Source: Candidatus Binataceae bacterium
GTDB taxonomy: Bacteria; Desulfobacterota; Binatia; Binatales; Binataceae
Reading direction: 5' to 3'
Assembly (NCBI GenBank): GCA_035650475.1
Contig: DASRHP010000009.1
Coordinates: forward strand, 238,545 to 302,544
DNA length: 64,000 nucleotides
Positions 14,425-59,412 of the stretch are shown piece after piece; the first letter of the stretch is position 1; every line of letters begins with the position of its first letter. A program made the translations under genes and the position numbers. Below the pieces are notes generated by a model. The model was not told the origin of the DNA. It saw only the letters and a program-made list of their open reading frames with translations, and made no database searches.

Positions 14425-16866
14425 CTAGCGGGAGCGGGCGCCGGCTAACACGGCGGACGGCGCGGCGGCGGACAAACTCGCGGATTCGTACCGCACGATA
14501 AACCGCGGGCGGCGCCAGGCGACGAATGCGGGCAGGATGAACAGTCCGACGATCAGGTTGGCCGTCATCAGCAGGATGAGCATCGAGCTCATCTCGTTGT
14601 GAAACAGCAGCGGCGAGAACACCCACGGCGCCATCCCGCCCGCCATCACCACGTAGGTCGCGAACACCCACACGCCGGTTGTGCGCAGAGCGGCCACGGT
14701 CGCGTCGTCCAACGCGCGCCCTTGGCGCACTTCGTCGCGGATGCGCGCGACCGTGTAGATCGCGTAGTCGATACCCAGTCCGACACCCAGTGAGATAACC
14801 GGGATAGTATCGACGGTCAGGCCGATCCCGCGCGCGTTCATGTAAAGGAAGGCGCCGAAGTTCGCCATCACGCACGCCAGCGCGAAAACAATCCCCGCGG
14901 CGAGCGAGCGGAAAATCAGTGCGCAGCACAGCAGGATCGCCGCTAGCACCAGTTCGAGGTTGGTCCGGTTGATCCGCGCCATCACGTCGTCGGTGGCCAG
15001 ATACAGCCCGGCCTCGCCGCCGAGATAGCGCACCTTTACCTGGTCGAGCGCAGGGTCGTTGGCGACGCGCTCGCGGGCGAAAGCGTCGAGGTCGCGGCGC
15101 AGGCGGATCAGGCGGGCATTGGTATGGTCGGGCAGGAGCAGGCGGATACAGGTGTTGTTCATCGCCGGCGCGTAGGCGAAGTAGGCCTGCGGCTCGTCGG
15201 GGGCGGCCGCCGCGAAGAAGAATCCCCACAAATTGGCGCTGAGCTGATTGGTGTTGGGCAGTGCAAAGTACTTGGGATAGCCGTTGTGCAGCAGCATGTT
15301 CATCGGCTTGCTCGCCAGCGTGCCGAAGCCGAGCACCGCGACCGCGTCGCCGCGCGCCATCAGGTAGCTGGCGAGGTCGTCGGCCATCCGCAGGGTCTCG
15401 ATCCCTACCGCCGATTGCGAGCTCGGGTAGCCGGGTCCGTCCACGATTACCCATCCCGAGTTGGTCGGCAGAAGCTTGCCGATCTCGGCGGTGTCGCGGT
15501 TAATCTTCGCCTCGGGCCGATAGATCGGAGTGCCCGCGGTCTGGTAGCCGACGCGCACCTCGCGCGCGGCCGCGATTGCGGCGATCATCACCCCGACGCC
15601 GGCGGCGATGAGCACGCCGCGTCCAAAGCCCGGACGAGTCGGGAAGGCGGCCAGCCGTCCGACCGGCGCGCGCCATCGAGCGGCCGCGCCGTCCAAGCGG
15701 TCGAGCAGCGGCGATCTGCGCCGCTGTGGCGTCGGCAGGTAGCTCATCAGGAGCGGCTGGAAAACGAACACCATCGCCAGGCTTGCGCCCAGCCACACCG
15801 CGCCGCCAAGTCCGATCTGGCGCAGGGCCGGAACGTCGCTGAGCGCGACGAACACGATGCCGGCGACGTTGGCAAGCACCGCGAGCAGCCCCGGCGCCGC
15901 CATCGCGTCGAACGTCGCCGCGCAGGCGCGCAGATTGTCGCCGTGGCGGTCGAGTTCCTCGTAGTATTGGCCGTGCCACTGGATGCCGTGGCCGAGGTCG
16001 CGCGCGGTAAGGATAAACGGCACCACCAGCATCACCGGGTCGAAGTTGAAGCCGCGCATCCCGACGAAGCCGAGCCCCCAGATCGTCGAGCACGCCCCGG
16101 TCGCGAGCGGCGCCCACCATCCGGTGCGCCGTCCCAGCGCGACGAACGCGAGCAGCGCCATCAGCGCGGCCGAGAGCAGGAAGATTAGTCCGATGCGGGC
16201 GAGGTAATGGTAGCCCCACGCCGCGAACATCGCGGCGCCGCTCGCGTAGATCCGCGTGTTAGCGTCCTCATGCTCGGCGATTATCCGCTCGACGCCGTCG
16301 AACAGCGCCTTGTAGTCGAGCCCGCTCTCGTTGAAGCTCGCGATCACAACCGCGCCGCGCTCATCGCGCGTGACTAGGCCGGCGAGCTGCTGGAGATGGG
16401 AGCGTACGACGCCTTTGAGCGCGTCGAGCTGCTGCGGCGTGCGCGGCACGTGCGGATACATATAGGGCGAGGAGACCAGCGCGCCGGGCTCGGCGCGCGC
16501 GTAGAGTACGCGGTAGGAAGCGAGCGAGAAGACCTCGTTATGATTGACGCCGGGCAGCTTGTCCACCTCGCGCGTCATGTCCTGGATCGCCTGCAAGGTG
16601 CGGAAGTTGAAGATGTCGCCGCGGCCGACGCGCAGCATCAGCACCAGCTGCTGCGCCCCGCCGTACTGGCGGCGGAACTTACGATAGAGCAGCACGTTGG
16701 GGTGGCCGGCGGGAAACAGATCCTCGAAGCGGGTAGCAATCGGGACGTGCGCCGCCCAGAACGCCATGAACAGCGTGATCGCGAGCAGCACGCCCCCGAC
16801 GGGCGCGCGATTGCGTACGATGAATGCGCCCATCCCCCGGTCTTGCTCGCCGCTGGCAGTCGCCAT
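14425..16866 (-). CDS. RND/MMPL family exporter permease
   Basis: About 813 residues. Two homologous halves each have one N-terminal transmembrane helix (about residues 17-36 and 415-440), a large periplasmic domain, and a five-helix bundle (about 220-390 and 620-800). The second bundle contains the GVGLGIDYAIYTVARIRDE segment typical of the HpnN/MMPL sterol-sensing-like branch of RND transporters. These export hydrophobic compounds or lipids (hopanoids, mycolates) using proton motive force. The ATG at 16866 is chosen because the upstream frame is Arg-rich. It lies 188 bases downstream of the zinc-ribbon/TPR gene on the same strand. No membrane-fusion or outer-membrane partner is nearby, as usual for MMPL/HpnN. 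Confidence 0.88.
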   Translation of the reverse strand: MATASGEQDRGMGAFIVRNRAPVGGVLLAITLFMAFWAAHVPIATRFEDLFPAGHPNVLLYRKFRRQYGGAQQLVLMLRVGRGDIFNFRTLQAIQDMTREVDKLPGVNHNEVFSLASYRVLYARAEPGALVSSPYMYPHVPRTPQQLDALKGVVRSHLQQLAGLVTRDERGAVVIASFNESGLDYKALFDGVERIIAEHEDANTRIYASGAAMFAAWGYHYLARIGLIFLLSAALMALLAFVALGRRTGWWAPLATGACSTIWGLGFVGMRGFNFDPVMLVVPFILTARDLGHGIQWHGQYYEELDRHGDNLRACAATFDAMAAPGLLAVLANVAGIVFVALSDVPALRQIGLGGAVWLGASLAMVFVFQPLLMSYLPTPQRRRSPLLDRLDGAAARWRAPVGRLAAFPTRPGFGRGVLIAAGVGVMIAAIAAAREVRVGYQTAGTPIYRPEAKINRDTAEIGKLLPTNSGWVIVDGPGYPSSQSAVGIETLRMADDLASYLMARGDAVAVLGFGTLASKPMNMLLHNGYPKYFALPNTNQLSANLWGFFFAAAAPDEPQAYFAYAPAMNNTCIRLLLPDHTNARLIRLRRDLDAFARERVANDPALDQVKVRYLGGEAGLYLATDDVMARINRTNLELVLAAILLCCALIFRSLAAGIVFALACVMANFGAFLYMNARGIGLTVDTIPVISLGVGLGIDYAIYTVARIRDEVRQGRALDDATVAALRTTGVWVFATYVVMAGGMAPWVFSPLLFHNEMSSMLILLMTANLIVGLFILPAFVAWRRPRFIVRYESASLSAAAPSAVLAGARSR

Positions 16867-17017
16867 CGCTAGCGCCCCGGCGGACGGTCGAATGGTTCCC
16901 CCCTCATAGCACGTTTTTCGGGGGCGCGTATGGCGCCTACCCCCTTCCCCCTTCAGGGAGCGGGAAAGGAGAAGCGGGCGATGCGCGAGCGCGGCGCCGC
17001 GCGGTATGCGTGTCAGT

Positions 17018-17046
17018 TTCCCTCCTCTGAAGAGCGAGGGGACAAG
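17018..17046 (-). other. intergenic hairpin between TPR gene and RND gene
   Basis: A CCCTC-type arm and GAGGGG arm enclose CTCTGAAGAG just after the stop of the TPR gene. No T run follows, so it may be a weak terminator or an RNA-stability element that lowers RND expression. Confidence 0.35.
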
Positions 17047-17054
17047 CGGAGAGG

Positions 17055-18614
17055 CTACTCGCTGACGGATTCCATCACGCGGCCGCTTTGGGCGTCGGCG
17101 AGATCGACGGTCACCGTGCCGGTGACGTTGTGCGCGGCCTTGGCGGTTTGCAGGCCGGCCTTGATGTCGGCGATGAACTTGTCGCGCGCAAACGGCGGCA
17201 TCGCGCCCATCGGAAAGTTGTCCATCATTACCCGCGCCCGCGTTTTCGACGCCCACTGGACCGCGGCGACTTTGCGGCCCGCCACCGGCAGATTGCGCAT
17301 CATCGCGGCAACCGCGTCCTGGAATGTCGCCGAGGATGACGGCGCGGAGGCGGCCGAGGCGACATTCGAGGGAGCGGCGGCGTCCGCATCGACGGTCAGC
17401 GAGCGCATCACGCGGTTGCTCGCCGCATCGGCGATCTCGACCGTCACCGGGCCGGCGACGTGATGGTCGCTCATCAGGTCGCGTGTGCCCGAGCGCAAGT
17501 CGTCAAGAAAGCGCTTCGCGGCGAACGGCGGCATCTGGTCCATCGGAAAATTGTCCATCAGCATCCGCGCTTGGTCGTCGCCGGTCCATTGCACGGCATG
17601 CACCTTGGCGCCCGCGATCGGCAGCGCCCGCACCATCCGCTCGAAGGCGCCCTTGAACGTCGCCGCGCTCTCGCCGCTCGCACTGCCGGCCGCGCCCGCT
17701 TGTGCGGCGACGGCGGTCTCGCCGCCCTCGACGCCACCGACGGTTGCGAGCATCTGGTCGATCTCGCTGCGCGTGCGATCGTCGGGCGCAAGCTCGCGCG
17801 CCTTCAGGAAGTAGCTGCGCGCGGTCGGCTTGTCCTCCTGTTCGGCGTAAGCCACGCCGAGGTTGAAGTAGGCTTCGAAGAACTTCGGATGCTTCGCGAT
17901 GACCTTCTTGTATTCGACCATCGCGAGATCGGCGTTGCCGCTGGAGAGGTACATTGTGCCGAGGTCGGTGCGCACGCGCGGGTCGTCGGGCTTGCGGTCG
18001 AGGTAGTGCTCGTACGCCGCAATCGCCTCATCGTAGCGATGGCGGTCGTAGTCGAGGTTGCCCGTCCCGCGCAGGGCGTCGAGGTTGTCGGGATCGAGCT
18101 TGAGCGCATGGGCGAAGGCGCGCTCGGCGGTCGCGTAGTAGGCCTGGTCGAACATCGCGGCGCGCTCAGCGACCTGGCCGAGGCGGTTCCATGCGGCGAC
18201 GTCGTTGGGGGCGGCCTCGGCCTTGGCCTGGATGTCGGCGATGAGCTTGCGGGCTTCGTCGGGGAGCTTGAGCTGCGGATGGCCGGGCGGCAGGTTGCTG
18301 GCGGTAGTGGCGCGGCTGGCGGCGCTGGCTAGTTCCTGCTGATGCTGGGGTAGCTTGCGCAGAATGAAAACGGAGGCGGCGAGTCCCACGACCAGGATGC
18401 CGCCGAAGACGGCGGCGAAGGCCGGGCTGACGCGCGATGCGGAGAGGGTAGAAGCCATGTCGGACGCCGCCGAGGACATGATGTCAGCGGCGGCAGGGGC
18501 ATCGGTCCTGCCGCCGGCGCCGACCGACGCCGACGCATCCAGCGCGGTTCCGCACCCGACGCAGAACTTTCCGCCGGCCACCACCGGCGTACCGCATTGC
18601 GGACAGAATCGCAT
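17055..18614 (-). CDS. zinc-ribbon, single-TM, TPR protein with duplicated C-terminal domain
   Basis: 519 residues. An N-terminal zinc ribbon (CPQC and CVGC, residues 4-22) is followed by a low-complexity linker and one transmembrane helix (about 66-86). About four TPR repeats span 125-280 (LGQVAERAAMFDQAYYATAERAF, GNLDYDRHRYDEAIAAYEHYL, LGTMYLSSGNADLAMVEYKKVI, LGVAYAEQEDKPTARSYFLKA). Two tandem copies of an unnamed module of about 85 residues follow (about 310-400 and 420-519), each with LP.AG.KV.AVQW, MDNFPM and MPPFA. The zinc ribbon should be cytoplasmic and the TPRs plus modules periplasmic. Same strand as the RND permease, so co-expression is possible. Overall function unknown. Confidence 0.8.
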   Translation of the reverse strand: MRFCPQCGTPVVAGGKFCVGCGTALDASASVGAGGRTDAPAAADIMSSAASDMASTLSASRVSPAFAAVFGGILVVGLAASVFILRKLPQHQQELASAASRATTASNLPPGHPQLKLPDEARKLIADIQAKAEAAPNDVAAWNRLGQVAERAAMFDQAYYATAERAFAHALKLDPDNLDALRGTGNLDYDRHRYDEAIAAYEHYLDRKPDDPRVRTDLGTMYLSSGNADLAMVEYKKVIAKHPKFFEAYFNLGVAYAEQEDKPTARSYFLKARELAPDDRTRSEIDQMLATVGGVEGGETAVAAQAGAAGSASGESAATFKGAFERMVRALPIAGAKVHAVQWTGDDQARMLMDNFPMDQMPPFAAKRFLDDLRSGTRDLMSDHHVAGPVTVEIADAASNRVMRSLTVDADAAAPSNVASAASAPSSSATFQDAVAAMMRNLPVAGRKVAAVQWASKTRARVMMDNFPMGAMPPFARDKFIADIKAGLQTAKAAHNVTGTVTVDLADAQSGRVMESVSE

Positions 18615-39645: not shown

Positions 39646-40158
39646 CTACTTCTTCACCTCTCCCGCATACTCCAGGTTCATCATTGCCACGCCCGCCGCC
39701 ACGTTGAGGCCGGTGTTGCCCTCGATGCTCACCGGCTGCAGCGCGATCGAGCTGTCCATCCCGCCGACCAGCGCGTTGGCGCCCGCACCGAGCCCAACCG
39801 TAGCGCTGGCGGTGCCGCCGCCATAGTGACCGGCGAGCAGACCGGTCTTGTGGCTGACTTCGTGAGCCGGCGCAAACACGGTCCATAGGATCACGCCCGA
39901 AGCCAGGTAGCCGATGTCAGCGCCAAACTTGGTAATCGAGCCCTTGTAGTGCTCGACTTCCGGATGGCCAGCCACCGCCGAGGTGAACGTGCAATCCAGA
40001 TCACGCGACGAGCCGAAGATGATGCCCCAGCCGCTGGCGACGTTGCAGCTCAGATAGCCGACCTTCGTCGTCGCCTCGTCCGCGCGCGCGCTGGGCACGG
40101 CGGACAGCGTCACGGCGAGCGCCGCGAACGCAACCAATGCAAGTGTGAACTTACGCAT
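39646..40158 (-). CDS. secreted DUF992 protein
   Basis: 170 residues. The signal peptide is residues 1-26 (cleavage after ARA). The mature part begins VGYLSCNVASGWGIIFGSSRDLDCTFT, which is the DUF992 signature with its two Cys, and is Gly-rich with predicted transmembrane-like beta or hydrophobic strands. DUF992 is best known from Alphaproteobacteria and has no function assigned. AGGAGG is six bases before the ATG at 40158. Confidence 0.85.
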   Translation of the reverse strand: MRKFTLALVAFAALAVTLSAVPSARADEATTKVGYLSCNVASGWGIIFGSSRDLDCTFTSAVAGHPEVEHYKGSITKFGADIGYLASGVILWTVFAPAHEVSHKTGLLAGHYGGGTASATVGLGAGANALVGGMDSSIALQPVSIEGNTGLNVAAGVAMMNLEYAGEVKK

Positions 40159-40413: not shown

Positions 40414-41628
40414 TTAGGGGTCGCTGCTGCGCGAGGTGATACCACGGCCGAACGCCGCCACCTCCGAGCGCCACTTCTCGCCGAAGGCCAAGATCAGCAC
40501 CTGCTGGTTGATGTGTTGATCCTTGGTCAGGCTGCGCCATACGCCGCCGCCCGCCCGCGCCATCGCCTGATACGCCGCCTGCGTCTCGAGGTAGAACTCA
40601 GGCAGGGTGTTGACCGACATCGGCGCGCCGCCGTTGGTCTCTTCCCATTCCTTGACGAAGGCCTCGTGTTCCTCGACCGTCAGGTCCACCGTATTGAAAG
40701 TGCCGTTCTCGTTGTGGAACTGGCGGATGAGTTGGAGGCAGGGATCGAAGTCCTCCTTGAACGGCGGGGTGTCGCCGACCAGCACGATCACCTTGCGTGC
40801 GTACGACCGCCAGCCCATCGTATCGACCGCGGTCCGAATCGCGCCGAGTGTATTCTCCTGCCATTCACCGCCGTTGTGTGCGCGGATGTTATTGAGAAAG
40901 TTGATCAGCGGAGCGGTCTGCGTAGTGAGCGCCTGGACCTCCATCGGCTCGCCGCGTCCGCCGAAGACCACCACTCCGATACGCGCAGTCGGCACCAGCC
41001 GATGGATCGCGAGCATCAGCGATCGCATCTTCACCTTGACCTGGTCGATCACCAGGCGCATCGAGCCCGTGCCATCTATCACGATCACGACGTCGAGGCC
41101 GGTGCGGCGCAGTCCGCTGATAAACCCGCCGAAGCTGTTGCCGATACCCTGGCCGTAGCCCGAACCGATGCCGCCGCCACGGCCGATGCCGATGCCGCCG
41201 GTGGTTGCGCGAACGTAGTTGTTGGCCGTGGTCACGATTTCGCGCGCCGCGGTGTTGAGCTCCGTGGGACGCTCGATCGGCAGCGCCGCCATCTCGGGCA
41301 ACTGCGTTTCGGGCAGGTTGGTGTCCTCGCCGGGCTTGGACTGGCCACCTCCCCCGCCCGCCTGGAGGCTAACCGGGATGAAATTCGGAGCGCTCTCGAT
41401 GTGCACGGCGAAGAGCAGAAAAAGCAGCACGACGACGTGCAGGCCAATCGAGAGCGGGAAGGGGCCGAGCAGAAAGCGCAGGCTCTGGCGCAAGGCGTGC
41501 CGCAGCCCGGGCTTCTCCTGGTCGGGATCCTCTTCGCCCAGATGCGCCCGGCTGCTGATCCAGAACAGACCCAGCGCGACGACCACCACCGAGACCGCGA
41601 GGAGGCCGATTTCTTGCGCGACGCTCAC
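40414..41628 (-). CDS. VWA-domain protein with TonB-like transmembrane anchor
   Basis: 404 residues. TM1 is residues 6-26; a charged cytoplasmic loop follows; TM2 (about 58-76) contains SIGLH, an SxxxH like the one in the TonB anchor that contacts ExbB/ExbD. A Gly-rich, Pro-containing periplasmic linker (about 90-170) leads to a von Willebrand A domain (about 177-395). Its metal-dependent adhesion site is D185-x-T187-x-S189 in VVIVIDGTGSM. It is last in the ExbB-ExbD-ExbD operon, in the place where tonB would be expected. The C-terminal TonB domain is absent. GTG start. Probably a proton-driven periplasmic binding protein; partner unknown. Confidence 0.85.
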   Translation of the reverse strand: MSVAQEIGLLAVSVVVVALGLFWISSRAHLGEEDPDQEKPGLRHALRQSLRFLLGPFPLSIGLHVVVLLFLLFAVHIESAPNFIPVSLQAGGGGGQSKPGEDTNLPETQLPEMAALPIERPTELNTAAREIVTTANNYVRATTGGIGIGRGGGIGSGYGQGIGNSFGGFISGLRRTGLDVVIVIDGTGSMRLVIDQVKVKMRSLMLAIHRLVPTARIGVVVFGGRGEPMEVQALTTQTAPLINFLNNIRAHNGGEWQENTLGAIRTAVDTMGWRSYARKVIVLVGDTPPFKEDFDPCLQLIRQFHNENGTFNTVDLTVEEHEAFVKEWEETNGGAPMSVNTLPEFYLETQAAYQAMARAGGGVWRSLTKDQHINQQVLILAFGEKWRSEVAAFGRGITSRSSDP

Positions 41629-41754
41629 AAATTCCTTTTTTTGTCGGCGGCGCTCGCCCGGCTCCCCCGAGAGGTCCGCGCCTGAGCTCTTATTATGCGC
41701 CCGCAGGCGCGTTTGCGGCCAGCGTAACTATTCTTACCTCGTCGCCCCGGCAAG

Positions 41755-42240
41755 CTACGTCCCCGGGCCTTCTGCCGCCGGCTCCGGCGGAGCAATCGGC
41801 CCGCTCGGAACCGGCGCCCCCGCGGCCGGCCCCGGCAGCTTGGCCACCGCAAGTGCGATCTGCTGCGCGCCGGCGGTCTTGGCCACGTCGAGAATGTGCA
41901 CGGCGTCGGCGAGGATCACCGCCGGGTCGCCCTGGAAGACCACCAGCTTGTCCGGATCCTTGGTAATCGCGTCCTTCAGCGCCGTCGGCAGCATCGCCTC
42001 GGGAATCTCGGTCTGGTTGACGAAGATGCGATGGTCCGAGGTGTACATCACGAGCACGCCCTTGGGCTTCTCGCTGCTCGATTGCGCCTGGACCTTGGGC
42101 AAATCGACGTGCGCCGCCGACTCGATGGTGATTGCTGTCGCCACCATGAAGATGATGAGCAGGACGAGGAAGATGTCCGTAAGCGGCGTGATATTGATGT
42201 CGGCGAAGAGGCCTCCGCCCTGATTGCTGCTGATTGCCAT
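41755..42240 (-). CDS. ExbD/TolR family protein (copy 2)
   Basis: 161 residues. INITPLTDIFLVLLIIFMV is the single transmembrane helix with the proton-relay Asp22. A periplasmic domain with FVNQTEIPE and VVFQGDPAVILADAVHILDVAKTAGAQQIAL follows, ending in a Pro/Ala/Gly tail. ExbD subunits with an ExbB pentamer convert proton motive force into movement. 80 bases after the first exbD; a second ExbD in one operon is a known but less usual layout. Confidence 0.92.
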   Translation of the reverse strand: MAISSNQGGGLFADINITPLTDIFLVLLIIFMVATAITIESAAHVDLPKVQAQSSSEKPKGVLVMYTSDHRIFVNQTEIPEAMLPTALKDAITKDPDKLVVFQGDPAVILADAVHILDVAKTAGAQQIALAVAKLPGPAAGAPVPSGPIAPPEPAAEGPGT

Positions 42241-42320
42241 CGTCTGGAGCTATCCGCTTACAACCGCTACTGGCCGTGCGCCGCTGTTCTCCGGCTGCAA
42301 TGTGTTGACGCTGCCGCGGG

Positions 42321-42788
42321 CTAACCGCTGCGGGCGCCGGCGCCGCTCACTCCGCTCGTCTGCATCCGTTGCACCTGGCCCGGCGCAACCCGCTTGGCCG
42401 CGATCGCGATCTGCTGCGCGCCGGCCTCCTTGGCGATCTGAAGGATGCGGATCATGTCGCCCAGCAGCACCTTCTGGTCGCCCTGGAAGATGACGACTTT
42501 GGAGTCGACCCGGTTGAGCGCCTCGCTCAGCGCCGATTCCAGGTCGCGCTCGGTCACGTCCTTGGAATTGACGAACAGCTCGTGCTGTGCGGTGTAGGTC
42601 ACGATCACGCCCTTGTTCTCGGGCGAGGTGTTCTGCGCCAGCGGCAGATCGACGTGGGAGGCGGCCTCGATGGTCACCGAGGTGGTGACCATGAAGATGA
42701 TCAGAAGGACGAGGAAGATGTCGGTCAGCGGCGTGATGTTGATTTGCCAGAACATCTCGCCGCCGGTTTTGGGCCCGCTAACCGCCAA
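42321..42788 (-). CDS. ExbD/TolR family protein (copy 1)
   Basis: 155 residues, clear paralogue of the next ExbD. TM with INITPLTDIFLVLLIIFMV and Asp23, then the periplasmic domain (LFVNSKDVTERDLESAL, VVIFQGDQKVLLGDMIRILQIAKEAGAQQIAIA). The two copies differ in loop and tail, so a hetero-oligomer is possible. Its start overlaps the ExbB-type stop by 11 bases. Confidence 0.92.
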   Translation of the reverse strand: MAVSGPKTGGEMFWQINITPLTDIFLVLLIIFMVTTSVTIEAASHVDLPLAQNTSPENKGVIVTYTAQHELFVNSKDVTERDLESALSEALNRVDSKVVIFQGDQKVLLGDMIRILQIAKEAGAQQIAIAAKRVAPGQVQRMQTSGVSGAGARSG

Positions 42789-43419
42789 CGGCTTGTCTCC
42801 CCTGGAGCGCGGCGTCGATCAGGCGCGCGGCGTTGATGTGGATGGCGGCGTTGATGTTTTCGATCTTGACCGAGAAGTAGTTGTAGAAGATGACCGCGAT
42901 GATCGCGACCGCCAGACCCAGCGCGGTCGAAATCAGCGCCTCCGAGATGCCCGCTGCGACCACCGAAAAGCCGCCGGTCCCCATGATCGCCATCGATTGG
43001 AAGGCGACCAGGATACCAACCACGGTGCCGAACAGGCCGATGAACGGGGCCGAGGCACCCGAGGTTGCGAGCACCCAGATGTAGCGGCGCAGCTCGACCA
43101 GCTCTTGGAAGCGGCGCTCTTCGTCGAGTTCCTCCAGCCGATCGCGGTCGAGGTTGCGCGCCCCGCTGATGAGCGTATGGAAGACGCGGTCCGCGGCCGT
43201 GCGCCCGGCCTCGGTCTCTTGCAGGGCGGCATCGAACTTGCCCGCGCGCAGCGGGCCGACCAGGGCGTCGGCGGTCTTGGTCGCACGTGTACCGATGCCG
43301 CGCAAAGCCCACAGGCGCTCGAAAATCACCGCCAGGCAAACGATCGAGATGATGATCAGCGGGTAGGTGGCGTAATAACCCTGCTGGATCATCTGGATGA
43401 TGCCGAACTGATTCTGCAT
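42778..43419 (-). CDS. MotA/TolQ/ExbB proton channel family protein
   Basis: 213 residues with three membrane helices (about 17-37, 120-145, 160-185). GLFGTVVGI and ALISTALGLAVAIIAVIFYN carry the polar Thr residues lining the ExbB/TolQ channel. The usual AIPA near the last helix is AIIA here, lacking the Pro. First gene of the ExbB-ExbD-ExbD-VWA operon; AAGGA lies before the ATG, and a good promoter is found about 130 bases upstream. Confidence 0.92.
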   Translation of the reverse strand: MQNQFGIIQMIQQGYYATYPLIIISIVCLAVIFERLWALRGIGTRATKTADALVGPLRAGKFDAALQETEAGRTAADRVFHTLISGARNLDRDRLEELDEERRFQELVELRRYIWVLATSGASAPFIGLFGTVVGILVAFQSMAIMGTGGFSVVAAGISEALISTALGLAVAIIAVIFYNYFSVKIENINAAIHINAARLIDAALQGRQAVGG

Positions 43420-56014: not shown

Positions 56015-57448
56015 CTACGACGTTGAATTCGCACTGAGCGCGCCGGCGACGTCCTCTCCCGCCGGCGGCCCGCCCCAAATTCCGCGGCACAGCGCGTAGG
56101 CGGGCCACACTGCGGCCGCGAGCACGATTGCGATGATGAAATCGACGCGGGCGCCGCCGTGCGCGAGCGCAAGGCTGAACGTCGCGAGCCAGGTCACGGT
56201 CGGCGCGAGCACGACCAGCCATAGCGCGGGCGTCCCGCCGCCGATCACGAACAGCCCCTCGCGCGCTGGATGCAGCCGGCGCAACCGCACCAATGCGCCC
56301 AGCTCAAGCATCAGCGCGCCCATATAAAAGAACACGTCGAGCACCACCAACGCGGTAAAGCCGAGCGGAACGAGCAGCGTGAACAGCACGCAGCAGGCGA
56401 AGATCGAGCGCCCCGGGGTTTCGGTAGCGCGCCACAGCTCGGCCAGCGACGGCGGCAGATAGCCTTCGCAGGCCAACACGTACGGCATCCGCGACACCCA
56501 CAGCATCGCGGCCTCGAAGATCGCGAACGACGAGACCGTGCCGCCGAGCGCGAGTGCCCCGCCCAACAGCATCCCGCCCATCCGGTAGCCCTCTTCGGAG
56601 AAAAATCCGGTCTCCCACTTCGCGCCGCCATGGGCGCCGGAGAGCGAAACGCCGAGCGGCAGCAGATATCCGAGCACCACCAGCGGCAGCGCGATCCCCA
56701 GCGCGCGCAGATAGGTGCGGCGGGCGTCGCGAATCTCGCCCGCGACCACGCTGGCGTTCTCCCATCCGCTGAAGTTCCAGATGACCACGCTCAGCCCGGC
56801 GCCAAGGGCAGTGGCGAAGTCAGGGCCGAAGAGCCGGCCGGCGGGCGGATGCCAATGGAGCAACCGGCCGAAGCCGACCGCGACCAGCGCCGCAAACGGC
56901 GCGCTCAGCAGCGCCATCAGCAGGATCGACACGTTGCCGGTCGGGCGCACGCCAAGAAAGTTGAGCAATCCGGCGATCCAGACCAGCGCTATTCCGACCG
57001 CGAGCTGGCCGCCGCCGCCAAGCGGGTAGAGGAAGGCGAGATAGGCGGTGAAAAGAACCGGGTAGATCGCCATATCAACCACAGTGTAGAGGAGCGTCAG
57101 GTAGGCCTCGGCGAAGCCGGCGAACGGCCCGAAGGCCTCCTTGACCCAGAAGTAGAAGCCGCCCTCGACGGGCATTAGCGCATTGAGCTCAGCCGCCATC
57201 AGCGCCGTCGGCAGGCTCAGCATCAGCGGCACCATCAGGCACAGCAGCAGGGTCAGCCGTGGCCCAGCCATCCGCACTGCGTCCTCCATCCCGTAGGCAC
57301 CGCCGCTAACGATCAAATAGATCACGCAGGTGAGCGCGAGCAGCCCGAGCTTGCGCGTCCCGGTCGCGCCGGACGCCGAGGATAGCCTGGGCGCGGAAGC
57401 ATCCCCTTTTGCGCTGGAGAATGCCGCGGAGCTGCTGGACGTTGCCAT
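56015..57448 (-). CDS. APC superfamily amino acid permease
   Basis: About 477 residues, 12 membrane helices. KLGLLALTCVIYLIVSGGAYGMEDAVRMAG is the TM1 region of the AGT/LAT-like branch; FYFWVKEAFGPFAGFAEAYLTLLY and SGWENASVVAGEIRDARRTYLRAL support it. Start chosen at ATG 57448; the upstream open frame (to 57589) has no membrane helix or motif. Substrate unknown. The coupled class V enzyme downstream suggests uptake plus catabolism of one amino acid-like compound. Confidence 0.87.
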   Translation of the reverse strand: MATSSSSAAFSSAKGDASAPRLSSASGATGTRKLGLLALTCVIYLIVSGGAYGMEDAVRMAGPRLTLLLCLMVPLMLSLPTALMAAELNALMPVEGGFYFWVKEAFGPFAGFAEAYLTLLYTVVDMAIYPVLFTAYLAFLYPLGGGGQLAVGIALVWIAGLLNFLGVRPTGNVSILLMALLSAPFAALVAVGFGRLLHWHPPAGRLFGPDFATALGAGLSVVIWNFSGWENASVVAGEIRDARRTYLRALGIALPLVVLGYLLPLGVSLSGAHGGAKWETGFFSEEGYRMGGMLLGGALALGGTVSSFAIFEAAMLWVSRMPYVLACEGYLPPSLAELWRATETPGRSIFACCVLFTLLVPLGFTALVVLDVFFYMGALMLELGALVRLRRLHPAREGLFVIGGGTPALWLVVLAPTVTWLATFSLALAHGGARVDFIIAIVLAAAVWPAYALCRGIWGGPPAGEDVAGALSANSTS

Positions 57449-57524
57449 AGAGGCTACGCTGTAGTCGAGCGGGTTAGCCGGCACAAGGCGCGGGGATTGC
57501 GCGTCGGCAGGCGTGCGGGCAACA

Positions 57525-57553
57525 TTTATAAGCTGAGCCGGTATCCGTATAGT
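57525..57553 (+). promoter_or_regulatory. predicted promoter for the TPR lipoprotein gene
   Basis: TTTATA (57525-57530, 4 of 6 matches to -35) and TATAGT (57548-57553, 5 of 6 matches to -10) are 17 bases apart in an AT-rich patch. The GTG start at 57601 lies 47 bases downstream. Confidence 0.4.
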
Positions 57554-57600
57554 AGTAGCATCCTGTCCGCTGAAGGCCGGCGCTGACAATCAAACCCACT

Positions 57601-59412
57601 GTGTTAACTGCGAAGCAATCGGTCCCCGCTGACAAATCAAAGTTGGCAAAATTTCCGCGGTTGCCGGCGCTTATCGCCGCGCTGGCGTTGGCCCTTGCGG
57701 GATGTGCCCGTGTGGGTGCGCGGCCCAAGGGGCCTCCGGCGGCGGTCGTCCTGATTCCGCGGTCGTCCTTCGGCGGCCGGCCCGCGGTCGAGATTCCGGA
57801 GCAGGCCAAGGCGATGGGCGCGTTTCTCCAAGCCGAGGTCGCCACCGAGAACGGTGACCGCGCCAAGGCGCTGGAGGCGCTGGAAGAGGCGGTGCAATAC
57901 GACCCGGGCAACGCCACGCTGCGCGCGACGCTGGCCACGATGTACATCCGCAACGGCCGCCTGCAGGACGCGCTCGCCCAGATCAACGAGGCGCTTAAGC
58001 TGGAGCCCGGCTTCGCCCGCGCCCATCTGCTGGCCGCCGGCATTGACACCGCGACCGGCGACGACGCCGGCGCCGAGCAGCAATACAAGGAAGTGCTGCG
58101 GCTGCGGCCCAAGAACCAGGAGGCCTACCTGTTCCTGGGCACGCTGTACGCCAATCGCGGCGACTACGAGCAGGCGCGCAAGACCTTCGAGAAGCTGATC
58201 GAACTCGATCCGCAATCGTTCCTGGGCTACTACTACGCTGGGCGCACGATGCTGGCGGCGAAGGACTATCCAGCCGCCGAGCGCTATTACAAGCGCGCGC
58301 TCGAGCTCAATCCGCAGTCTGAACTGGCGCTGCTCGACAAGGGGTCGCTGCGCGAGGCGCAGGGCAAGCGCGACGACGCCGTCGCGATCTACAAGAAGAT
58401 CCTCCAGCTCAATCCCGACAACGACCGCGCGCGCAAGCGCCTGGCCGAGCTGTACTTCGCCGCTCACGCTTCGGCCGAAGCGCCGGTTTCGCAGGCGCCG
58501 GCGCCGGCGAAGATCGAGATCAGCCCGAGCGATACGCGGACCAAGATCGGCCTGCTGTACTTCGAGCGCGGCGACTTCGAGCGCGCGGCCACCGAGTTCA
58601 ACCTGGTGCTCGGCGCGCAGCCCGACAACTACCGCGTCCACTACTACCTTGGCACCGCCTACAGCGAGATGAACGAGTTCGGCAAGGCGGCGGCCGAGTT
58701 CGACCAGGTTCCCGCCGACAACGTCCATTACGTCGAGTCGCGCCTTCAACTGGCCTACATCTACGATAAGCAGCAGGACTACGACCGCGCGCTCGGCGCA
58801 CTCCGCCAGGCGCTCGACAAGAAGCCCGACAACGCCGAGATCATGCGTTTCATGGTCGGGGTGTACGAGGAAAAGAAGGACTACCCGCCGGCGATCGAAC
58901 TGGCCAAGAAGATGGTCAGCCTCGAGCCCAACAACGACAAATACCACTTCACGCTCGGCGCGCTCTACGACGAGACCAAGCAGAAGCAGCTGAGCATCGC
59001 CGAGATGCGCAAGGCGATTTCGCTCAACCCCGATAACGCCCAGGCGCTCAACTACCTCGGCTACACTTACGCCGACGCCGGCGAACGCCTCGACGAGGCC
59101 GAGAAGCTCATCCGACGCGCGCTCAAAATCGAGCCCGAGGACGGCTTCTACATCGACAGCCTGGGCTGGGTGTATTACCGCAAGGGCGATTACAAGAAGG
59201 CGGTCGAGCAACTCGAGAAGGCGGTCAACCTGACTGGCGACGATCCCACGATCACCGAGCATCTGGGCGACGCCTACGCGCGCCTGGGGCGCTACACGCA
59301 GGCCGGCCAGCAGTACGAAGACGCGCTCAAACGGACCAAGGATCCTCAGCAAGCCGCGCAGCTCAAGCGCAAACTGCAAGCCCTGCGCAATGTCGGCAGC
59401 GCGAGCCATTGA
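57601..59412 (+). CDS. TPR-repeat lipoprotein
   Basis: 603 residues from a GTG at 57601. The signal ends in ALALAGC (lipobox, Cys near residue 35). From about residue 70 to 590 it is tetratricopeptide repeats, at least eleven, with a low-complexity gap (about 290-305) splitting them into two arrays. Such outer-membrane-anchored TPR proteins act as scaffolds. The stop region overlaps the next gene by 23 bases. In many deltaproteobacteria a TPR gene precedes lolB, which agrees with the neighbour. Confidence 0.88.
   Translation: MLTAKQSVPADKSKLAKFPRLPALIAALALALAGCARVGARPKGPPAAVVLIPRSSFGGRPAVEIPEQAKAMGAFLQAEVATENGDRAKALEALEEAVQYDPGNATLRATLATMYIRNGRLQDALAQINEALKLEPGFARAHLLAAGIDTATGDDAGAEQQYKEVLRLRPKNQEAYLFLGTLYANRGDYEQARKTFEKLIELDPQSFLGYYYAGRTMLAAKDYPAAERYYKRALELNPQSELALLDKGSLREAQGKRDDAVAIYKKILQLNPDNDRARKRLAELYFAAHASAEAPVSQAPAPAKIEISPSDTRTKIGLLYFERGDFERAATEFNLVLGAQPDNYRVHYYLGTAYSEMNEFGKAAAEFDQVPADNVHYVESRLQLAYIYDKQQDYDRALGALRQALDKKPDNAEIMRFMVGVYEEKKDYPPAIELAKKMVSLEPNNDKYHFTLGALYDETKQKQLSIAEMRKAISLNPDNAQALNYLGYTYADAGERLDEAEKLIRRALKIEPEDGFYIDSLGWVYYRKGDYKKAVEQLEKAVNLTGDDPTITEHLGDAYARLGRYTQAGQQYEDALKRTKDPQQAAQLKRKLQALRNVGSASH

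Follow-up and report, generated by a model that had tools for sequence, protein, structure and literature searches.

A putative proton-driven VWA transducer operon with a co-inherited, probable TPR partner in Candidatus Binataceae

The operon and its genomic setting

The 64,000-nucleotide stretch of the Candidatus Binataceae genome analysed here (the window; G000:C9:238545-302544, from a genome of 3.8 Mb in 18 contigs) carries a minus-strand tandem of exbB, exbD-a, exbD-b and a gene for a protein with a von Willebrand factor A (VWA) domain. The tandem runs from position 43419 to 40414 of the window and probably specifies an inner membrane proton motor with a VWA protein in the place of TonB. 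All four proteins pass the curated Pfam cut-offs:

42778-43419, minus strand: ExbB/TolQ-type motor protein (P0004), 213 residues; PF01618 MotA_ExbB, 101 bits
42321-42788, minus strand: ExbD-a (P0003), 155 residues, TTG start, 11-base overlap with exbB; PF02472, 84 bits
41755-42240, minus strand: ExbD-b (P0002), 161 residues, 80-base gap after ExbD-a; PF02472, 75.5 bits
40414-41628, minus strand: VWA force-transducer-like protein (P0001), 404 residues, 126-base gap; VWA_2, 41.9 bits (cut-off 27)

Coordinates and Pfam matches thus bear out the gene order, the overlap and the two gaps described in an initial annotation made from the sequence alone. The VWA gene starts with GTG, preceded by aaagga. 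The same annotation had noted the absence of a TonB C-terminal domain from the VWA protein and of tonB and TonB-dependent receptor genes from the window, and the Pfam searches agree, with no match to PF03544 (TonB_C) in P0001 or anywhere else in the window and no match to a TonB-dependent receptor within it. Elsewhere the genome encodes both, with TonB_C matches above the cut-off at C9:85.3k and C14:19.8k, one further match below the cut-off, and two TonB-dependent receptors on contigs C6 and C14. A canonical exbB-exbD-tonB/tolA-type set is located at C9:85-87k, where the TonB_C-domain protein possesses an SxxxH anchor too (LSGLGHAIFF), followed by the strand-like segment SYTVKIV. As this Ton/Tol-type set is separate, the VWA operon is an additional, dedicated system.

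Anchor, linker and domain of the VWA protein

Along its length, the VWA protein is composed of two transmembrane (TM) helices, a linker and a predicted periplasmic domain with a metal ion-dependent adhesion site (MIDAS):

41554-41613, minus strand: TM1, residues ~6-25, predicted N-out, from a hydropathy comparison of 95 homologues and alignments
41398-41460, minus strand: TM2 anchor, residues ~57-77, with Ser60 (41449-41451), His64 (41437-41439) and Leu71
41362-41379, minus strand: IPVSLQ, short hydrophobic strand-like segment after the anchor, candidate 'motor box'
41110-41361, minus strand: Gly/Pro-rich linker, residues ~90-173, from the sequence; residues 74-173 have a very low predicted local distance difference test (pLDDT) score in the full-length model
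40444-41100, minus strand: predicted periplasmic VWA domain, with a MIDAS-type DxTxS at 41062-41076 and fold matches

The SxxxH (Ser60, His64) that the initial annotation had placed in TM2, and on whose constancy in homologues it had made its reading depend, is all but constant in an alignment of 95 VWA homologues, 91 of which have an intact anchor: His64 is His in 91/91 and Ser60 is Ser in 90/91 (Ala once), with most of the flanking anchor positions varying freely, so that these two are the sole anchor residues close to invariance. Ser60, His64 and Leu71 match the S-x3-H-x6-L spacing of TonB and TolA. Leu71 is Leu in 60/91 homologues and position 75, the last Ser of the SHLS motif (S-x3-H-x6-L-x3-S), is Val in P0001 and mostly Val, Ile or Thr in the homologues; in Ton systems also, the Leu and the last Ser of the motif are less conserved (PMC12215075). 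The IPVSLQ segment is a candidate motor box, with position 86 being Val, Ile or Leu in 90/91 homologues and the TonB/TolA-type protein of the genome showing the same succession of anchor and strand. TM1, which is joined to TM2 by a basic, presumably cytoplasmic loop, is found throughout the family of the window and nowhere else in the set.

The MIDAS motif of the VWA domain (D185-G-T187-G-S189) is intact, as had been stated, and its residues are conserved in the homologues (D in 93/93, T in 91, S in 92), with the third-loop Asp286 retained in only 41. A full-length AlphaFold model, for which 6 sequences were used, was of low quality (pLDDT 46) and was left out of the fold searches, and a model of residues 165-404 (pLDDT 59, predicted template modelling score 0.57) was good enough just for confirming the vWA fold. 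Compared with the PDB, this domain model retrieved vWA domains with Foldseek E-values down to 1.8e-5 and with VIA-align Z-scores up to 15.9 (172 residues, 3.0 Å), including Rpn10, TFIIH subunits, integrin I domains and BatB; a PDB search with the sequence of the VWA protein gave weak matches alone, in and around the linker. The matches confirm a C-terminal vWA fold in place of the C-terminal domain of TonB and TolA, and are silent on the ligand.

The motor proteins

The solved chains nearest to P0004 are Escherichia coli ExbB and TolQ. In E. coli ExbB numbering, P0004 possesses the equivalents of T148, T181, E176 and S34, with W38 replaced by L and P190 by I. A survey of 84 ExbB homologues from VWA loci (23 from the family of the window, 61 from others) found both pore threonines (the T148 and T181 equivalents) as well as the Ser34 equivalent in 84/84; the E. 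coli reference sequence used agrees at Ser34, Trp38, Thr148, Thr181, Pro190, Asn196 and Arg200 with the published one (PMC12215075). The Asp of the proton path in the TM helix of ExbD is present in all 53 rows of the alignment, including 12/12 of ExbD-a and 12/12 of ExbD-b.

The NCBIfam equivalog models for TolQ, TolR, ExbB and ExbD match the motor proteins, all below their curated cut-offs and with higher scores as TolQ/TolR than as ExbB/ExbD, which indicates that the operon motor belongs to neither the standard Ton nor the standard Tol type. An anti-phage defence system of the Zorya type (ZorA/ZorB) was rejected, as the motor domain matches ZorA with 13 bits and the other proteins gave no match.

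Distribution of the module and origin of the exbD pair

Within the class of the window, 148 genomes were searched, 95 of them classed as good, and a homologue of the VWA protein was found in 87/148 and in 64/95 of the good ones. A sample of the phylum yielded VWA homologues in other classes as well, and the plasmids searched contained no homologue. Adjacency was counted at loci flanked on either side by 3.5 kb or more, annotated with profiles of the module proteins. Outside the family of the window, exbB adjoins the VWA gene at 41/41 loci, and inside it at 17/22, with 3/3 in genus g152 and 14/19 in the rest; the VWA gene of genus g156 has been relocated away from exbB-exbD-exbD.

Since the genome possesses a separate canonical motor set, it is conceivable that the operon encodes a spare, ordinary TonB/Tol motor which happens to lie beside an unrelated VWA protein. 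This explanation is very improbable, as it is contradicted by the conservation data, namely adjacency across the whole class and in other classes of the phylum, joint presence and absence, and the constancy of SxxxH.

Two exbD genes are present in 31/31 VWA-positive genomes of the family and in 1/10 of the VWA-negative ones (G246). ExbD-a and ExbD-b form sister clades (Shimodaira-Hasegawa-like approximate likelihood ratio test support of 99 together, 94 and 93 for each), which points to a single duplication at the root of the family with retention of both copies. As other lineages of the phylum possess a different, more divergent exbD pair (L045, L047, L090, L097), such pairs may have arisen more than once, a tentative reading owing to long branches.

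Variants of the arrangement occur. In two loci of family f78 (L106, L128), exbB-exbD pairs flank the VWA-TPR genes on both sides, with the second pair strongly diverged, and several f78 genomes have a gene for a PadR-like regulator in front of the module. SxxxH VWA paralogues or homologues without adjacent exbB/exbD, some in tandem, are encoded at G000:C12:988062-989171 (L034) in the genome of the window and at L035, L062, L070, L073 and L077. These orphan proteins may share the motor of the operon in trans.

The probable TPR partner

In most genomes of the class, the module consists of exbB, exbD, the VWA gene and a gene for a secreted tetratricopeptide repeat (TPR) protein of ~800 residues. 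Outside the family of the window, the TPR gene directly neighbours the module at 40/41 loci; apart from this gene and an additional exbD-like gene in certain lineages, nothing beside the module is conserved across families. Inside the family, genus g152 (L074-L076) displays the order TPR-exbB-exbD-exbD-VWA, and in the rest of the family the TPR gene resides outside the operon. There, a search with a profile of the partner (A2) retrieved a single strong match (553-654 bits) in 11/11 VWA-positive genomes tested outside g152. In the genome of the window, the match spans G000:C9:443657-446035 (633 bits) and identifies the following gene:

G000:C9:443636-446050: unlinked TPR partner gene (L149), likely start 443636, Sec signal peptide, ~141 kb past the window

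The partner is absent from 8/10 VWA-negative genomes of the family; the two which retain it are G246, which also has the exbD pair, and the 91%-complete G224. The unlinked gene is located between HAD-type and epimerase-type genes, and its neighbours look like housekeeping genes. As the TPR gene has been inherited together with the motor and VWA genes even after its separation from them, there is good evidence for the TPR protein as a genuine, working component of the module.

Bat-type operons also pair VWA and TPR proteins, and the co-occurrence of the two genes, together with BatB among the structural matches, would be consistent with a periplasmic assembly or chaperone unit in which the link to ExbBD is merely localising. 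We regard such a role as distinctly unlikely, as localisation alone would not hold the anchor Ser at 90/91 and His at 91/91, nor the motor Asp and Thr at 100%.

A second TPR protein, a lipoprotein encoded inside the window at 57574-59409 (plus strand), was rejected as the partner, as it reaches ~20 bits via generic TPR repeats versus 633 bits. It possesses an LAGC lipobox and many canonical TPRs, is divergently oriented to an amino-acid permease gene (56018-57589) and is in relatives syntenic, 4-5 kb from exbB. A CpaF/Tad-type secretion-like gene cluster is located ~5 kb upstream of G000:C9:443636-446050.

Comparison with known systems

The design of a VWA protein on a proton motor is already known. 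Williams-Jones et al. (2025) reported vWA "force transducers" that are anchored in the TonB/TolA manner and encoded beside a tolQ-like gene and paired tolR-like genes, often with a TPR gene (PMC12204202). Among them, transducers with an SHLS anchor (their Fig. 4a-b) have an architecture that was independently proposed and modelled, with the TM helix predicted to bind to the side of a TolQ-like pentamer; in the Planctomycetota-Verrucomicrobiota-Chlamydiota (PVC) group, the gene order is TPR-tolQ-like-paired tolR-like-VWA, the TPR gene being present often, not always (PMC12204202). Literature searches for further reports of the exbB-exbD-exbD-VWA arrangement found PMC12204202 alone, and the window operon extends the design to another lineage. 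The proposal in the initial annotation of a proton-motive-force-driven machine with a VWA domain in the place of the receptor-binding part of TonB is thus supported by sequence features (SxxxH, motor residues, adjacency, predicted VWA fold), but is not a new idea, as it was published in 2025 (PMC12204202).

Judged by the described features, the window operon appears to fit each defining feature of the published transducers that was checked, its two-helix anchor and its unlinked TPR gene being variants of the design. The Ser/His anchor, the C-terminal vWA fold and an associated TPR gene are shared with the SHLS-anchored proteins and genus g152 has the same gene order as described for the PVC group, while the family of the window differs by its extra N-terminal TM helix, the unlinked TPR gene (outside g152) and its own exbD duplication. 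The TPH-vWA proteins with TolQ only also place a vWA domain on a TolQ-type motor, but have no SHLS or tolR and would, by prediction, insert themselves into the pore (PMC12204202, Fig. 4c-d), whereas the window operon has SxxxH and two exbD genes.

With TonB-ExbB-ExbD, the operon shares the motor families, SxxxH, a strand-like segment followed by a Pro/Gly linker and the ExbB Ser34 equivalent, but it possesses two exbD genes and is devoid of a TonB C-terminal domain, a nearby receptor and the equivalents of ExbB Trp38 and Pro190. Likeness to TolA-TolQ-TolR consists in the higher, though sub-cut-off, TolQ/TolR scores and a Gly-rich stretch after the anchor; a TolA C-terminal domain is missing and the conserved neighbours include neither tolB nor pal. 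In the Agl/Glt gliding motor of Myxococcus, AglR is joined by the TolR-like proteins AglQ and AglS, and the vWA adhesin CglB acts in the pathway. It resembles the operon in one TolQ-like and two TolR-like subunits, but differs in that its motor is not known to contain a VWA subunit anchored as TonB is.

New here are the make-up of the module across the class, the adjacency of the TPR gene outside the family of the window and its co-inheritance within it, the exbD duplication at the root of the family, the extra TM helix and the retention of the ExbB Ser without the Trp/Pro pair.

Does the motor pull?

The features assembled above suggest that an inner membrane proton motor probably pulls on a periplasmic object via a VWA "hand" which replaces the receptor-binding end of TonB. 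The motor would be of the proton-driven 5:2 type, with a pentamer of ExbB around a pore that probably holds a single copy each of ExbD-a and ExbD-b. TM2 of the VWA protein would dock outside ExbB via Ser60 and His64 in a TonB/TolA-like geometry, and the Gly/Pro linker would pass the movement of the motor on to the VWA domain in the periplasm. This domain would grip a periplasmic or outer membrane partner, probably by its MIDAS loop. The best candidate is the secreted ~800-residue TPR protein, which may bind the VWA domain and connect it, as an arm or adaptor in the periplasm, with the peptidoglycan or the outer membrane. We infer that the VWA protein would in this way move or tension its ligand.

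Several observations weigh against this proposal. The VWA protein has two TM helices, not one, and at five loci with enough flank an SxxxH-VWA gene has no motor gene beside it. Furthermore, in the cryo-electron microscopy structure of E. coli TonB-ExbBD, TonB Ser16/His20 contact ExbB Ser34/Trp38 and Trp38 contacts Pro190, and a Trp38-Pro190 relay on ExbB has been proposed to carry the TonB signal (PMC12215075). Among the 84 surveyed ExbB homologues, Trp38 is absent in 84/84 and Pro190 is found in 0/23 from the family of the window and in 16/61 elsewhere (16/84 overall); the canonical ExbB of the same genome carries Ser34, Trp38 and Pro190. With Ser34 in all, Trp38 in none and Pro190 in 16, the residues indicate that the docking contact on ExbB is retained and the proposed relay is not. 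Loss of the relay is a real difference from TonB/TolA and calls for caution on force coupling.

Retention of the docking Ser/His with loss of the Trp/Pro relay would also suit a VWA protein that docks on ExbBD to sense or regulate the motor, as a brake gated by a ligand or metal might do, and passes no force. VWA domains are indeed ligand-controlled adhesion switches. Such a regulator is nevertheless unlikely, as each genome would need another output arm, with the conserved neighbours being just the TPR gene and, in some lineages, an exbD-like gene, and as the long Gly/Pro linker suits a transducer. A transducer driven by the proton-motive force and acting through the VWA-TPR pair remains the preferred reading, with a probability of about 0.7.

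A more elaborate version is speculative and rather unlikely. In it, one ExbB-ExbD-a-ExbD-b motor would serve interchangeable VWA tools, its own and the orphan SxxxH paralogues (e.g. G000:C12:988062); an asymmetric ExbD heterodimer and TM1 would fix a single docking register, and the force would pass through a dedicated TPR arm and not straight to an outer membrane receptor.

If the operon works as a force transducer in the preferred way, proton-driven pulling across the periplasm would have a third outlet, beside TonB for import and TolA for outer membrane constriction. The published vWA transducers are known from gene neighbourhoods, with no function assigned and the TPR partner a guess; with the TPR protein as a true component, VWA-TPR binding and a shared phenotype become directly testable.

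Neighbouring genes

The block upstream of the operon (SDR, low-molecular-weight phosphatase, CoA-binding and NUDIX proteins) is syntenic in relatives and looks like housekeeping. Directly downstream of the VWA gene, a DUF992 protein with a signal peptide is encoded at 39649-40152 (minus strand), by a gene that is not conserved at this position in relatives. An MMPL/RND-type transporter is encoded at 14428-17502 (minus strand); in L034, a homologue of it follows the orphan VWA paralogue at a distance of 3 kb on the downstream side.

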